Shown: positions 5,970 to 63,850 of the stretch, one piece after another
Layout: every line of letters begins with the position of its first letter
How positions within the stretch are numbered: the first letter of the stretch is position 1
Source: Hermatobates lingyangjiaoensis
Taxonomy: Eukaryota; Arthropoda; Insecta; Hemiptera; Hermatobatidae
Direction of reading: 5' to 3'
Length of the DNA: 64,000 nucleotides
NCBI GenBank assembly: GCA_026182355.1
Contig: JAPFBL010000034.1
Span: 2,488,501-2,552,500, forward strand
Notes under the pieces: generated by a model
Databases searched by the model: none
What the model was told of the DNA's origin: nothing
Seen by the model: the letters and a program-made list of their open reading frames with translations, nothing else
Made by a program: the position numbers and the translations under genes

Positions 5970-6440
5970 CTCAGTGGCAACGTGCTCGCCTCTGAACTGG
6001 GAGGTCTAGGGTCTGATACCCACTCTACCCTCAGTGGCAACGTGCTCGCCTCTGAACTGGGAGGTCTAGGGTCTGATACCCACTCTACCCTCAGTGGCAA
6101 CGTGCTCGCCTCTGAACTGGGAGGTCTAGGGTCTGATACCCACTCCAGCCTCAGTGGAACGTGCTCGCCTCTGAACTGGGAGGTCTAGTGTCTGATACCC
6201 ACTCTAGCCTCAGAGGCAACGTGCTCGCCTCTGAACTGGAAGGTCTAGGGTCTGATACCCACTCTAGCCTCAGTGGCAGCGTGCTCGCCTCTGAACTGGG
6301 AGGTCTAGGGTCTGATACCCACTCTAGCCTCAGTGGCAACGTGCTCGCCTCTGAACTGGGAGGTCTAGGGTCTGATACCCACTCTAGCCTTCGTTGCAAC
6401 GTGCTCGCCTCTGAACTGGGAGGTCTAGGGTCGGATACTT
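5970..6440 (+). repeat. Tandem array of SINE tRNA-like heads, 60 bp x 8
   Basis: Eight successive copies start near 5970, 6030, 6090, 6150, 6209, 6269, 6329 and 6389, nearly identical, one with a single-base deletion. Each contains an A-box-like segment before GTGCTCGCCTCTGAACTGG and a B-box-like GGTCTGATACC. The last unit runs directly into the SINE body at 6441. Because the unit is 60 bp (20 codons) all frames repeat and give long artificial open frames on both strands; these are not proteins. Confidence 0.9.
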
Positions 6441-33424: not shown

Positions 33425-33602
33425 GTATATATATATATATATATTGTGTGTGTGTGTGTGTGTATGTATATAAAGTCGTTATCAGCCTTTGGAGCGATTC
33501 ACATCTATTCCTGACGACGAGGACATCGAAATATAGTAGTGAGTTCAGTGATTTCTTTTCTGTGTGTTGTTTTGTAAATTCTAGTATATAAATATATACT
33601 CG

Positions 33603-38699: not shown

Positions 38700-39060
38700 A
38701 TGAAGCAGAAACCCACTAATAACTTCCTGATGACAAGGTCATCGAAATATAGTCATCAGTTTCTGTTTCATTTCAGTGTGTTTTTCTTGTGAATATAATT
38801 TCTGTATATCAATGTTCAAACCACAATGAGAAGAGGAGAAGAATGGCTAAGATCTTTCAAACCGTCTTTTTTATCATTTTTTATTGTGGTTTGAACATTT
38901 ATTGTTATTTCATGTGTTATTTCATGAGTCGCTCTCTGCCGGTACAAGTGGACACACGTACCTCTTCTTCTTCCCTTCTTCTCTCTGACGACGTACTTCA
39001 GTTCGAAATATCGATCCAGTAAGTTTTCTCGCTTCTTCTATTTGTTGTCTTTTTTCATGT
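38700..39060 (+). repeat. Degenerate pLTRs of families D and A
   Basis: 38726-38785: CTTCCTGATGACAAGGTCAT, CGAAATATAGTCATCAG. 38813-38940: shortened family A palindrome (ATGTTCAAACCACAATGAGA ... TTATTGTGGTTTGAACATT). 38981-39013: CTGACGA, GAAA and TATC with the correct core spacing, possibly another hammerhead-like motif with a weak helix II. Confidence 0.6.
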
Positions 39061-39218
39061 ATATATCTGTCCGGTTTGGACCGTTTTAATATTTTGATTT
39101 ATATATATATATATTGATATAGTTTCTCGACCACTGATATTTCAAATTCACATAAGGTGTTGTTGAGGATTTTGGTCATAAAATTTATGACCAAAATCTG
39201 CAATAACCCCTTATGTGA

Positions 39219-39490
39219 ATATATATATATATATATATATAAAGATTTCACATAAACACGTGAAATAACAATCAATGAACAAACCACAATAAGAAATGGG
39301 AAAACAAGACTAAGTCTTTCAACTGTAACAAGCAGTCTTCGTCAGAGTCAAAAACCCAACTAAACACACTGAAGATTTTGACTCTGACGAAGACCGCCCG
39401 CCACGGCTGAAAGATCCCAGTCCCGCTTTCCCATTTCCCACTGTGGCCCTATCATTGACTGCCATTTCACGCGTCTATGTGAAATCTTTT
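39219..39490. repeat. pLTR palindrome, family A, one arm A-to-G hypermutated
   Basis: Left arm 39243-39357 is close to the family consensus. Right arm 39374-39490 pairs with it except for a cluster of T-to-C changes at 39398, 39399, 39401, 39402, 39407, 39417, 39418, 39423, 39424, 39426, 39438, 39439, 39441, 39447-39449, 39459, 39462, 39463, 39472 and 39475, plus a single G-to-T at 39450. The outer 24 and 15 bp of the arm are unaltered. (TA)n borders the left side. Confidence 0.9.
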
Positions 39491-39558
39491 TATTACTATA
39501 ATATATATATAAAAAGACTTCACGTGTTGTTTGACGTGTTTGTGTGAAGTCTTATTAT

Positions 39559-39559
<1 letters not shown>

Positions 39560-39607
<48 letters not shown>

Positions 39608-39678
39608 GTTTTATTTTATATGTGGTCTTGTTTTCATTTCTTATTGTGGTTTGATCATTATATATATATATATATATA
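39560..39678. repeat. (TA)n with a family A scrap
   Basis: (TA)n 39560-39606 and 39659-39678 flank TGTGGTCTTGTTTTCATTTC and TTATTGTGGTTTGATCATT, the outer end of family A. Confidence 0.8.
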
Positions 39679-39837
39679 TACCATGATAAACGAAAAACGG
39701 TCCGGCAGGACAAATAACAATTAATATAAGCAGTGACACATAAACAGAAACACAACAAAGACTCACTTTTCAATATTTCGACCGTAATGGCGGTCGTCCT
39801 CAGGAGAAGAAGTGAATTGACGGAGGGACGACAGTCA
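39679..39837 (-). repeat. pLTR family B, single unit
   Basis: Nearly identical to 26703-26863, including the GAATTGACGGAGGGACGACA end, which suggests recent spread. (TA)n at both ends. Confidence 0.85.
39764..39815 (-). ncRNA. Hammerhead-like motif, family B
   Basis: Minus strand: CACTTCTTCTC, CTGAGGA (39803-39797), one C, helix II GACCG/CGGTC around CCATTA, GAAA (39779-39776), TATT, GAAAAGTGAG. Core complete; helix I can pair CACTT with AAGTG plus CTTC/GAA. Helix III would be the self-complementary ATAT, favouring a dimer. Confidence 0.6.
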
Positions 39838-39890
39838 ATATATATATATATATATATAACAGATTCAATAATATATCGACCGTTTGATAG

Positions 39891-40130
39891 AATAGGTGTG
39901 TATCCAATCGGGATTTGGTCAAATTTTCTAGGTTCAAAAATCAAACTCTCATTTTTAAAACTTTTATTTTAAAACCTTTTTCATAGGCAGAAGTAAGAAT
40001 TTTTTTAAACTAAGAAAATTCTTACTTCTGCCTATAAAAAAGGTTTCAAAATAAAACCGAAACGTCGGCAATGAGAGTTTGATTTTTGAACCTAGAAAAT
40101 TTGACCGAATCCCGATTAGATAACACACCT

Positions 40131-40132
<2 letters not shown>
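39891..40132. repeat. pLTR palindrome, family H
   Basis: Arms of about 110 bp: GTGTATCCAATCGGGATTTG ... CATAGGCAGAAGTAAGAATT and the complement from about 40014. The right arm has CTTCTGCCTATAAAAAAGG and AAACCGAAACGTCGGCAATG; GAAACGTC followed by GGCA pairing with TGCC resembles the 3' half of a hammerhead. (TA)n at 39838-39858 and 40134-40171. Confidence 0.8.
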
Positions 40133-40171
<39 letters not shown>

Positions 40172-40173
<2 letters not shown>

Positions 40174-41095
40174 CTCCGACAAGTGTATTAGGAAATGTTC
40201 TGCGCATTATTAATTAAAAATAAGTCATCTTGACCAATATTATGGGAGTCAAACTGTGTTAACCATTCAACACAAATCAAGTCGTGATAATAATTTATGA
40301 TGACTCAAAAATGACTGCAGTTGCAGTCATTTTTATTGAATCTTATTGAAACAAAAAAAAACACAATTAACTCACAATTAATAATTGAACATCACCATGT
40401 TCTTTTAATTTCGAATGAAAAAAAGAAAACTTCACTAGAAAAACATGAACCTGAATAAACAAGAAATTTCTCACAAATGAATAATCAGCAAAATATAAGT
40501 TATACAGAATACTGCTAATAACATAGTTATACAGTTTTCTCTAAATTTAATCAACCTTGCTTTCATTCGATTAGCTTACAACACACAATTTACTTAATTA
40601 TTAAATTGATATAACCAAAACAAATACAATTAAACTAACACACCATAACAAAGATTTTTTTTTACAAATTATTACAATTTAATTAGACAATGTTAATAAA
40701 TTACAGACAAGGAATGAGGGATTTAATAAGTCAAAAATACTATTAATAATTTATTTAACAAACCTGCAATGGTTAACTAATATTAAAAGTAATTTGTTAC
40801 GTAGATTTCTCCGTTATTCAAACTTGTTACAACAATTTGAGTTCACAGTGAACACAAAATACAAAAAATATGTTTATAACATACCGCAGATGCTCCTAGT
40901 TGAAGCACTTCGTACAAAATAAGTGTACAGCTCCTCTCAAATATGGGGTATGGTTGGCAGGAAAGCACATGCCCAAATTATAAATCCTAGTTAGAAAAAA
41001 AGAAAAGAGAAAGAAAAGACACAAAGAAAAGATACAGCATCTAAATTAATTACTCTTGACGATCACCTCGTGCACATAGTAACTATACCAAATGG
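40172..41095. other. AT-rich spacer
   Basis: Apart from the shared 60 bp near 40256 (see 37871-38526) nothing was recognised. Confidence 0.45.
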
Positions 41096-41665: not shown

Positions 41666-41963
41666 ACTTGGCAAGAGCTAATGAAGACGAAAATCATTGA
41701 CTAACCTTATTTTATAAGTACAGCCAAACTTTTTAGAAATGTCATCTCGGATATGAATATTTGTTCAACGCAGAGAACTGTGTAGCTCTTTCTTTAACAT
41801 ATATCGAGATGATAACTTGGCAAGAGCTAATGAAGACGAAAATCATTGACTAACCTTATTTTATAAGTACAGCCAAACTTTTTAGAAATGTCATCTCGGA
41901 TATGAATATTTGTTCAACGCAGAGAACTGTGTAGCTCTTTCTTTAACATATATCGAGATGATA
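41666..41963. repeat. Perfect 149-bp tandem duplication
   Basis: 41666-41814 is repeated without a mismatch at 41815-41963. The unit starts ACTTGGCAAGAGCTAATGAA and ends TATCGAGATGATA. Either very recent or an assembly artefact. Confidence 0.95.
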
Positions 41964-42234
41964 AAGCTGTGAACTTGCCATAGAATGTATATAATAGTAT
42001 TAATAGGTGTAAAATAAGATATCTGCAGTAGTATTGAGAAAGAACGTATTGTTATATGTTAAACAACAGATGGAATCTCTCCCATGTAATGAACGACATC
42101 TCCTTATCCCTGTCCTTATACTTGATCTAATTTGTAGTAAATGAATTTATAGTCCAATTTGACCAGTTAGAAAATAAATGTTCTATCCATGGTCCTTGTT
42201 AATGTACATCACCTATCTGGTGATAGGAGGAATT

Positions 42235-51593: not shown

Positions 51594-51718
51594 AAAAGAT
51601 TTCACATAAACACGTGAAATAACAATCAATGATCAAACCACAATAAGAAAATGGGAAAACAAGACTAAGATCTTTCAACCGTATCAAGCGGTCTTCGACA
51701 GAGTCAAAAACCCAACTA
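51594..51718 (-). repeat. pLTR family A, single arm
   Basis: AAAGATTTCACATAAACACG through CGGTCTTCGACAGAGTCAAA and ACCCAACT, with no second arm. The core CTGACGA reads CTGTCGA on the minus strand. Confidence 0.85.
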
Positions 51719-54159: not shown

Positions 54160-54395
54160 GTATATAATCAAACACAAATAACAAATGGGAAAACGAAACT
54201 AAGATCTTTCAACCGTAACAAGCGGTCTTCAGTTTTCAGTTTTCATTTGAAGTTTTCAGTTGGGTTTTGACTCTCTGACGAAGACCGCTTGTTACGGTTG
54301 AAATATCTTAGTCTTGTTTTCCCATTTCTTATTGTGGTTTGATCATTGATTGTTTTTTTACGTGTTCATGTGAAATCTTTATATATATTTAATAT
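54160..54395. repeat. pLTR palindrome, family A
   Basis: Short left arm from ATAATCAAACACAAATAAC, right arm to CACGTGTTCATG-type outer end (TTTTTTTACGTGTTCATG, near 54352-54369). The centre holds a small TTCAGTTTTCA repeat. Confidence 0.8.
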
Positions 54396-59617: not shown

Positions 59618-59656
<39 letters not shown>

Positions 59657-59698
59657 AATTCAAAACGAAGGAAACACACAGAAAGACACAGACATAAC

Positions 59699-59740
59699 TC
59701 ACATCGATATTTCGACCATCGTCGTCATCAGAAGGTGTGA
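59699..59740 (-). ncRNA. Hammerhead-like motif, left arm, family K
   Basis: Minus strand: TCACACCTT, CTGATGA (59731-59725), one C, helix II GAC/GTC around GATG, GAAA (59713-59710), TATC, GATGTGA. Every invariant core base is present. Helix I pairs TCACA with TGTGA across an internal loop; the predicted cleavage position follows C59706. Helix III is the self-complementary ATAT, so a dimer is likely. Confidence 0.65.
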
Positions 59741-59838
59741 AGAGCGAAGAGCAAAGAGTCCCGCAGGGAGACAGGGCAGTGACTCCATCGCTGCCGTCGC
59801 TGCCCTGTCTTCCTGCGGGACTCTTCGCTCTTCGCTCT

Positions 59839-59880
59839 TCACACCTCCTGATGATGACGATAGTTGAAATATCGATGTGA
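59839..59880 (+). ncRNA. Hammerhead-like motif, right arm, family K
   Basis: Plus strand: TCACACCTC, CTGATGA (59848-59854), one T, helix II GAC/GTT around GATA, GAAA (59866-59869), TATC, GATGTGA. Complete core; predicted cleavage after C59873. It faces the PLE reading frame, so a sense transcript would carry it in the leader. Confidence 0.65.
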
Positions 59881-59930
59881 GTTATGTCTGTGTCTTTCTG
59901 TGTGTTTCCTTCGTTTTGAATTTATTTTAT

Positions 59931-61206
59931 TTAAAAAAAGTCCGCTGGACCTCACTCCTTCTACCAATTTTCTAGTTTCCTTAGCCGAATTTGTCCTGAA
60001 GCATAATGCCTTCCAGTTTGATGGTGCCTTTTACCTTCAAACCAAGGGTACTGCGATGGGCACTATTATGGCTCCTTCTTTTGCTAATTTGTTCTTGGCC
60101 AAATTAGAGCAATCTTTTCTGTCTGATCGTCAATTCCTTCCCCTTCTTTATACTCGCTACATTGACGATATCTTCTTCATTTGGCCACATGGTACCCATG
60201 AGTTAAACCTCTTCCTACTTTCCTTCCAAAACTTTTCGTCCTCCATCTCCTTCACCCACCAAGTGTCCAGCAATAAAATTACTTTCCTTGATGTTGATGT
60301 CACCCTCAACAATAGCAGTTTCTCCACCTCTGTACATATAAAACCTACTAATGCACAGCAGTACCTCCACTACAGTAGTTGCCATCCCACCCACATCAAA
60401 AAAGCAATCCCAGATCCCTTTCCATCCGCATCCACAGGATTTGTAATAATTTGAAAAACCGTAGTTCCCACATTAACTGTTTGAAAGAAAAATTAATTGA
60501 TCGTGGCTACCCTTCCAATGTCATTGATAGTCGTGTCGTGCCGGCTGAAATAGTTCACCGGCACGTACCCAGAAAAGACCACACTGATAGTGTTTTCCTG
60601 ATATCCACTTTTTTCCCTGGCGCTCATAGGATTGGCTCGGTTATTAAGGAGTTTTTCCCATTGCTCTCCTCTTCTCCTTCTACCTCATCTATTTTTCCTG
60701 AAGCCCCCTCCTTATCATATCGCAAACCACCGAACCTCAGAGGCATTTTCTCCCATCACTCTCCCTTGAACCCTACACTTGGGAGGGGAATGTTGGAGTG
60801 CGGACGGAGCAGATGCCAAACCTGTCCTATCATAAACCCTAATCCCTTTTTTACTTCCCCCCATAGCAATATTAACTACCCTTGTCCTCCCCACACCTCA
60901 TGCACCTCGGTTAATTGCGTTTACCGTTTGGACTGCACCCAGTGTGATGCATTCTACGTTGGTATGGCCTCTACGCAGCTCAACTTACGTATGAATGGTC
61001 ACAGGGCTTCCGTTGGTCAACGCAAAAACCTTCCTATTGCTATCCACTCTAATTCCCATGGACTGGATTTTAATCACTGCTTCCGGGTCCAAGTCCTTAA
61101 TCATATCCCTGTTCAGTCTTCTCGGGTTACTTTAAGAGCTTCAGAGGAGGCAATTATCTGTCTTCTCAAAGCTCGCTCTCCTCCTGGCCTTAACTTGTAC
61201 CGTTAA
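59931..61206 (+). pseudogene. Penelope-like element, RT palm to GIY-YIG, one frameshift
   Basis: The best preserved PLE here. Frame one (to 60454): FVLKHNAFQFDGAFYLQTKG, GTAMGTIMAPSFANLF (motif B), YTRYIDDIFFIW (catalytic motif C), ITFLDVDVTLNN, IKPTNAQQYLHYSS. At 60409-60414 one base is missing and reading continues in frame two: RSLSIRIHRICNN, HRIGSVIKEFFP, RSRCQTCP, NCVYRLDCTQCDAFYVG (GIY-YIG core, here VYR/YVG), LRMNGHRAS, LRASEEAIICLLKARS, stop at 61204-61206. The N-terminal domain and palm motif A are missing, so it is 5'-truncated despite the pLTR in front. Confidence 0.9.
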
Positions 61207-61835: not shown

Positions 61836-63270
61836 TATAATAATAATATGAATAAAGTATAAAAAAAATGAAAAATTGATATTATTGATATGTGTTTTTT
61901 GCTATTGTGATTTTCCTGCTTATTCCATGTTAATCATAAATATAGATTCAGTATTCACAAAACTACATTATGATGGAAGCTTTATATTAAATTAATAAAA
62001 CGATCAACGGAATTTAGTAAGGAAGATCGCTTTTGGTTTTGTATTAGTCAGAAGAGGGTTAATATTGGATGGACGTTTATGAGAACTGGGTAGGCCCATT
62101 AGCTAAGAAGCACTGTATCCTGTGCTCTTGTTCATTATTTAGGAATATTGATTCGATCCTACTAAAATTGGTGGCATGAATTCAAGTGATCATATATTAC
62201 TAACAACCTTATTCCATGTTCATAAATTATGATGCTTTCAAACCAATTAGCTAGAAATATTCCGTTAATTCCCTTGCTTGAATTTAAAAATATAAAACTT
62301 TTTTGTTTTACCTCGTGATGTATACTATAATGCATTACTGATACTATACCTTTCATTGTTATTTAAATACTTTTATTTATATTTTTATTTTTAATCTAAA
62401 AAAATTTCCTCCATTCTCTTTCATTTTCTTTTGCTATAGCTTAATTTTTTATTTTCATGTATTTCTTCTTATCTTTACAAAATTTTGAAATGTTTTCTTT
62501 TTTTGAACTTCCAGCTGGTAACAATGAAAGTTCTTTCGTAACAGATGTATTTATCACTTGCTCTGAAAGTTTCTACTTTGCTGAGTTTGATTTACATGTA
62601 ACTTTGATTGTTTTGTTATTGGTGTTGCACATATATTGCTAGAAGAATGCTGATGTAGGCAGATTCAGTGAAATATTTTTGGTTGTCGCTCTATTTTGCT
62701 TAAAACCATTCCATGTTATACAAATCATGCTGGTATTGTTATCTGTGATTTAGTTGCCGCTAAATAGTCTTCTTTAAGCTTATTGTATATGTATAACCGT
62801 CGCTATAGAGAAAGTGGCAGTTTGTTTGAATGTTTGCTGTAGGGTAATCTCCATAAAACAATTCCCTTTAGGGCTATTAGTAGAAAGCTGATCCGCTGTG
62901 GAAACATTTTCTGGGGCTACGGTATTCTAAAAACCATTGCGAGTTAAATAGCCGTAAGAATATTTGTTGTGGTAGTAGTAGTCGTACAATCATTGTTATA
63001 GGACGAATTGCGGTATGTCCTTTCCTGTCAAAATAGTCCAGGTTTATCCACTGTAAAAACATTCTCTAAAAGCAAGTATTTTTAAGACACTAAATAAAAC
63101 GCCTTGGAACCATCATAGAAACAACAATGAATTAAGATTAATAGTAACACATTACTTTTTATGTTTTGTTGACTGAGGAACTGACATGCGTGAAAAGTCA
63201 GCCCTCCGATGCTGATTCCTCGAGTAATATTGCATCTCCCAGTGATTCTGCCATGAACAATAGTGATGTA
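61836..63270. other. AT-rich spacer
   Basis: 62400-62530 resembles the T-rich body of family I (CTTCCAGCTGGTAACAATG). No gene recognised in the rest. Confidence 0.4.
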
Positions 63271-63850
63271 TCTGACATTGTACAGGCTCTGGACCGACGG
63301 TTTCGCGTCCTCTCCAAGGGACTACGAGGTCAGATTTATTTACCTCCCTCGTTAATAAATCAATATCAGAGGGCTATTTAAGGTGTATCTGACATTGTTC
63401 AGCCTCGGGACCGACGGTTTCACGTACTCTCCGAGGGACTACGAGGTCAGATTTATTTATCTCCCTCGTTAATAAATCAATATCAGAGGAATCTGTAACG
63501 TATATCTGACATTGTACAGGCTTGGAACCGATAGTTTCGCGTCCTCTCCGAGGGACTACGAGGTCAGATTTATTTACCTCCCTCGTTAGTAAATCAATGT
63601 CAGAGGGATTTGTAACATATATCTGACATTGTACAGGCTCGGGACCGACAGTTTAGGTTCTTCTCCGAGGGACTACGTGGTCAGATTTATTTATCTCCCT
63701 CGTTAATAAATCAATATCAGAGGATCTGTAACATATATCTGACATTGTACAGGCTTGGAACCGACGGTTTCGCGTCGTACTCTCCGAGGGATTACGAGGT
63801 CAGACTTATTTACCTCCCTCGTTAATAAATCAATATCAGAGTTGGTTTCA
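63271..63850 (-). repeat. Tandem array of SINE body, 117 bp x 5
   Basis: Units start TCTGACATTGTACAGGCT at 63271, 63388, 63505, 63622 and 63738 (periods 117, 117, 117, 116). Each contains GGACCGACGGTTTCGCGT, CTCCGAGGGACTACGAGGTC and the AGATTTATTTACCTCCCTCG hairpin segment, the inverted body of the same SINE family. Differences between units are few. Confidence 0.9.

Follow-up and report, generated by a model that had tools for sequence, protein, structure and literature searches.

One arm of a head-to-head palindrome in the genome of Hermatobates lingyangjiaoensis carries a derived, strand-specific cluster of A>G changes with ADAR-like neighbouring bases. The palindrome lies in a window of 64,000 nucleotides, which is the whole stretch of DNA that was analysed and to which all positions refer. 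Judged from sequence comparison, the cluster is best explained, and with fair likelihood, by ADAR-type deamination that retrotransposition then fixed; the scar is real, strongly non-random and probably made by ADAR, with n = 1. It had been proposed in an original prediction that a minus-strand transcript of the palindrome folded into a hairpin, was edited and was then reverse-transcribed, an interpretation which finds support in part: the best supported cause is ADAR-like editing preserved by reverse transcription, the changes being of one type, on one strand, dense and never found after G. The two features on which the analysis centres are as follows.

39376 to 39487, minus strand (the A-rich sense lies on minus): right arm, a hypermutated copy of a pseudo-LTR-like fragment, from alignment with 16 other arms.
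39398 to 39475, minus strand: block with 21 A>G changes and one C>A, in which 21 of 40 adenosines are changed, from comparison with the consensus.

The repeat to which these arms belong, family A, is about 120 bp long. It is often present as a pair of inverted arms joined at or close to the end CCCAACT, with AT-rich sequence alongside. A BLAST search with the left arm of the palindrome gave 27 hits in the window, of which 24 were aligned and 17 counted (the focal arm and 16 others), while ten hits were left out of the count as short or degenerate, nine being compared separately and one (39525-39552) printed. Against the consensus of the 16 other arms, the right arm differs over 112 aligned bases by 21 A>G and one C>A, read on the minus strand, and all 22 substitutions are confined to 39398-39475, in full agreement with the 21 T-to-C changes, the one other change and the unaltered flanks that had been claimed for this block. 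The first and last A>G changes span 78 bp (window 39475 to 39398), with arm flanks identical to the consensus. When the two arms were compared directly (39243-39490), T>C was the commonest difference, with 22 cases. Over the 1602 sites pooled from the 16 other arms there are 74 substitutions, among which C>T (17), G>A (12) and C>A (11) predominate while A>G occurs four times and T>C twice, and under this spectrum the chance that at least 21 of 22 changes would be A>G is about 5e-26. Slow accumulation does not fit a set of changes in which 21 of 22 are of one type, and CpG decay or APOBEC activity is rejected as the change runs in the wrong direction.

At the 21 changed sites the 16 other arms carry 290 A, 4 T and 2 G (296 letters in total, with 40 gaps or uncovered cells, and with the right-hand arms of other palindromes taken in), so that on this comparison the A>G changes are derived and essentially private to the right arm (39376-39487). 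Within the window, an ordinary subfamily sharing the same changes is not seen, with 2 G among 296 letters, and many copies with exactly these changes, which the original prediction had named as its refutation, were not seen among the 16 other arms of the window. The ten left-out hits have mixed changes or none, with 0 or 1 A>G each except for the arm at 38808-38860, and the 28-nt piece printed from 39525-39552 has no A>G. The short palindrome from which this piece comes (39525-39576) consists of two tail-like fragments and has T>C and other changes relative to family A. When the window was scanned against itself with A/G or T/C collapsed, three of the four rows printed corresponded to the right arm at 39376-39487. 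The fourth row, 33434-33496 against 51593-51531, has 12 versus 2 directional A/G differences and 6 others, a weak asymmetry.

The cluster is polarised and bounded. Within the block, T>C is found at 0 of 13 thymines (Fisher 4e-4 against A; P(0) about 2e-6 with neighbour rates), these and the other p values being rough, as the statistics come from one arm at one locus in which adenosines in runs are not independent. Outside it, 11 of 11 adenosines are unchanged, and for the 9 of them that were scored the probability at in-block rates is about 0.001, so the block has edges. The changes are derived, lie on a single strand, form a cluster and come with hardly any other mutation, so that a single event is their probable origin.

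The bases next to the changed adenosines are ADAR-like. By 5' neighbour, the fractions changed in the block are 4/4 after T, 13/21 after A, 4/9 after C and 0/6 after G; the sparing of adenosines after G, for which six or seven sites had been claimed, is thus borne out, with 0 of 6 changed versus 21 of 34 other adenosines (one-sided Fisher p = 0.007). By 3' neighbour, they are 4/4 before G, 6/9 before C, 9/20 before A and 2/7 before T. ADARs favour adenosines in the orders U>A>C>G on the 5' side and G>C>A>U on the 3' side. When the two orders were tested by permutation, the 5' order gave p = 7.5e-4, the 3' order 0.010 and both together 5e-5, and among the 24 possible orders the ADAR order ranks second on the 5' side and first on the 3' side. 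In a post hoc count, 2 of 14 adenosines were changed where a G lay one to three positions upstream, versus 19 of 26 elsewhere. Two marks of ADAR-edited sequence are present, namely an A>G cluster on one strand with few other changes and avoidance of a 5' G. The bias against 5'-GA is reported for ADAR (PMC9638939) and for a mollusc ADAR1, which is described as having no strong 3' preference (PMC6651903). The single locus and the lack of a strong 3' preference in the mollusc enzyme count against the ADAR reading. So would a degenerate inverted family A pair beside the focal palindrome (38808-38918), if the same process was at work there: in its A-rich arm (38808-38860) five of the 10 substitutions are A>G, and two of these five follow a G, while its partner arm has 0 A>G among 6.

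Family A itself was compared with Penelope-like elements (PLEs), and its palindrome looks like a head-to-head pair of PLE pseudo-LTRs, on the evidence of structure and of the following features.

39455 to 39491, plus strand: right-arm "tail", with the stem-loop ATTTCAC..GTGAAAT, adjoining the AT-rich target, as identified by eye.
51594 to 51718, plus strand: single family A arm with a 16-bp exact direct repeat, a probable target-site duplication, from comparison of the flanks.

The tail, comprising the outer 34-36 bases, is absent by eye from the right arms of the palindromes at 10k, 26k, 50k, 54k and 55k and present in their left arms. Penelope elements are described as having inverted pseudo-LTRs, with an optional tail of 31 bp on one of them (PMC3846280), and a 30-40 bp tail bounded by two internal reverse transcription initiation sites has been reported (PMC11167929). 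Non-simple direct repeats were found at 2 of the 6 copies tested, namely the single arm at 51k and the 50k palindrome, which is flanked by a 15-bp direct repeat with one mismatch; none were found at the 54k and 55k copies, and those at the 10k and focal 39k copies are TA-rich only and uninformative. Inverted pseudo-LTR-like arms, an optional tail and a probable target-site duplication are thus all present. A DNA-transposon MITE was considered in view of the (TA)n flanks, but the 16-bp direct repeat that brackets the single-arm copy, together with the tail of PLE type, speaks for retrotransposition. Family A shares with known PLEs the head-to-head inverted repeats, the junction palindrome, the AT-rich target, the optional tail on one arm and direct repeats at some copies (PMC3846280; PMC11167929). 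It differs in that the focal palindrome has a tail on both arms, and that the focal copy carries hypermutation, a feature not mentioned in the PLE descriptions compared (PMC3846280; PMC11167929). Family A itself showed no ORF, and an exact family A 28-mer had 0 matches in prokaryote contigs and 0 in viral contigs.

The probable sense of the PLE RNA was approached through a neighbouring element and a ribozyme-like motif.

59646 to 59933, with the ORF on the plus strand: head-to-head palindrome of 288 bp with arms 91.7% alike, running into an RT-like ORF, from self-comparison and a profile match.
39317 to 39345, minus strand: hammerhead-like core in the left arm (CTGACGA-stem-GAAA), found with a relaxed hand descriptor and used as a pointer to the sense of the PLE RNA.

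The first of these was used both to infer the sense and as a control for mismatches between arms, its own arms differing at 12 of 144 sites with mixed types. The ORF at 59864-60451, which belongs to the neighbouring element and not to family A, matches RVT_1 at E 3.8e-6 with 27.2 bits, under the Pfam cutoff of 29.6, and its best PDB matches are to telomerase reverse transcriptase, weakly (E 0.013-0.015). A second ORF in another frame (60379-61203) has a weak match to PF01541 (GIY-YIG; E 0.12, 13.2 bits, cutoff 22.6) and no homologues at E 0.001, so that 59864-61206 holds an RT-like ORF together with a weakly GIY-YIG-like one. Searches for the ribozyme with Rfam gave no match over the whole window at gathering scores and, under permissive settings over 38700-40500, 85 matches that are mostly microRNA hairpins and include no hammerhead. 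A strict hammerhead descriptor gave 0 hits on the window. A relaxed one gave 19 against 4.1 expected, a post hoc count, as the descriptor was loosened after the sequences had been seen, and one in which 8 hits are family A copies and not independent. A hammerhead-like motif at 59848, with a stem of only 3 base pairs, lies on the same strand as the RT-like ORF, and the family A motif lies on the T-rich strand, which suggests, weakly as far as the hammerhead is concerned, that the T-rich strand is the PLE RNA sense and that the strand bearing the A>G changes is antisense to PLE RNA.

The geometry of the palindrome bears on how edits could have reached one arm alone.

39243 to 39362, plus strand: left arm, without A>G, with three substitutions and a 1-base deletion by comparison with the consensus.
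39363 to 39375, no strand: filler between the arms, differing from seven other printed junctions, by junction comparison.

The left-arm substitutions are T>A, C>T and G>A, two of them at CpG by eye. All eight arm-arm junctions that were printed are different, as expected if two separate copies were joined, which makes one-armed editing less odd. The opposite arm had been called oddly unedited in the original prediction; that it is unedited was confirmed, while the oddity is lessened by junctions that fit two joined copies. In the palindrome at 54k, the filler (54215-54300) looks by eye to be pieced together from GAAAACT-like segments, as templated end joining can produce.

On the fairly likely reading, then, the right arm arose by retrotransposition from a PLE pseudo-LTR fragment. 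An ADAR-type enzyme would have converted adenosines on the antisense, A-rich strand to inosine before genomic fixation, the inosine then being read as G. From the cluster and its setting we infer that there was a single event, which enzyme acted, which strand is the PLE sense and what carried the edits. Two ADAR routes remain, in which either an edited antisense RNA served as template or nascent cDNA was deaminated in a hybrid. The antisense-RNA route has the better-known chemistry and needs an antisense template; the cDNA route fits the geometry and needs efficient editing of matched dA:U.

Edited RNA as the carrier, with a single hairpin included, is plausible though short of probable. The likelier carrier would be antisense PLE RNA, in a duplex formed with sense RNA or inside a palindromic transcript, and this RNA, once edited, would template the right arm while an unedited template would give the other. 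Purified PLE protein is reported to cut and extend both target strands (PMC11167929), and this property, together with the different junctions, makes two arms from two templates plausible. Double-stranded RNA can form according to predicted folds: five other palindromes give predicted RNA hairpins of -60 to -157 kcal/mol, so that long dsRNA could form, as far as predicted folds go. Against RNA editing stands the position of the edited strand: relative to the inferred PLE RNA it is the antisense one, so that an antisense template is required, and such a template has been suggested but not demonstrated (PMC3846280).

Deamination by ADAR of first-strand cDNA in an RNA:DNA hybrid, during target-primed reverse transcription, is rather unlikely though a genuine contender. 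If the PLE RNA corresponds to the T-rich strand, the edited strand would be the first-strand cDNA; extension of both target strands by PLE protein would give two cDNAs, one of which could be edited alone (PMC11167929), and the eight differing junctions agree with this. ADARs deaminate dA in hybrids according to a review, in which A-C mismatches are deaminated more efficiently (PMC12599245), whereas the present case would call for editing of matched dA at half of the sites. A wider proposal, that germ-line ADAR edits nascent retroelement cDNA in RNA hybrids and that PLE copies keep strand-polarised A-to-G scars, is speculative and fairly unlikely; such editing would be the adenosine counterpart of APOBEC3 hypermutation.

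Repeated placement of dG opposite U by the reverse transcriptase, for example under scarce dATP, is improbable. It would put A>G on the same strand as first-strand cDNA, and the preference for a 3' G or C could, in our own estimation, be a next-nucleotide extension effect, but it needs the enzyme to err at half of the sites while making only one other mistake, and the avoidance of adenosines after G (0/6) is predicted beforehand by ADAR and not by misincorporation. The whole-hairpin version of ADAR editing, in which a single minus-strand transcript would have been edited as a hairpin and then copied in its entirety, as the original prediction had it, is disfavoured and very unlikely. A minus-strand transcript of the focal locus does have a predicted hairpin of 116 pairs in 258 nt, in which 21 of the 21 changed bases face T, as I:U or G:U pairs would; however, editing of both strands, expected of a hairpin substrate, is absent, as 0 of the 12 partner-arm adenosines opposite the block are changed (P about 2e-6 at edited-arm rates), which tells only against the single-hairpin version.

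Sequencing is difficult in palindromes and AT repeats. A systematic mismatch error of a single type, G-to-A, has been documented in trace data (PMC2873906), and an assembly or sequencing artefact at the palindrome would have this precedent. Such an artefact is nonetheless very improbable, given context-dependent substitutions of a single type with no indels in the block, and mixed mismatches in four other inverted repeats that were compared. Synthesis of the arm by an error-prone polymerase during insertion repair is the most improbable reading, for although A>G with WA preference is a signature of polymerase eta or iota and 17 of 25 WA sites are changed versus 4 of 9 CA sites, this difference is not significant (p = 0.20) and 21 changes in 78 bp do not fit the error rates and tract lengths of these enzymes.

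ADAR-type editing fixed by retrotransposition has relatives among known systems. ADAR hyper-editing of dsRNA, as in viral biased hypermutation and inverted repeats, shares the one-strand A>G clusters, the 5'-G avoidance and the large share of adenosines changed; the focal changes differ in being fixed in genomic retroelement DNA. APOBEC3 editing of retroelements likewise produces strand-specific hypermutation of a retroelement copy, whereas the focal arm has A>G and not G>A, and the enzyme class would be another (PMC2873906). A deaminase-driven reverse transcription model shares A-to-I changes in RNA or hybrids copied as A>G, but was put forward on the strength of mutation statistics in cancer and antibody genes, not for retroelement insertion (PMC11817618). 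No such scar is described in the titles and abstract openings among the matches listed from the open-licence literature, a scope that does not establish absence from print. ADAR scars fixed in DNA, if true, would be a record of the nucleic-acid strand present while the copy was made. For PLEs, the choice between sense and antisense RNA as template has been left open, and self-priming would need an antisense template (PMC3846280). A count of strand-polarised A>G clusters in every PLE copy of a genome could decide between the two, and the antisense strand of the present scar makes a genome-wide count informative.

Other repeats were also noted in the window. Close to the focal palindrome, a nested, near-perfect inverted repeat of another family, MITE-like in appearance, occupies 39901-40122, with outer arms of 53 bp that are 96% complementary and inner arms of 46 bp that are 93% complementary. 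Two tandem 149-bp copies with 100% matches (41666-41964) indicate a recent duplication, and tandem arrays occur at 5970-6438 (60-bp unit, 7.8 copies, 95%) and at 63269-63841 (117-bp unit, 4.9 copies, 87%).
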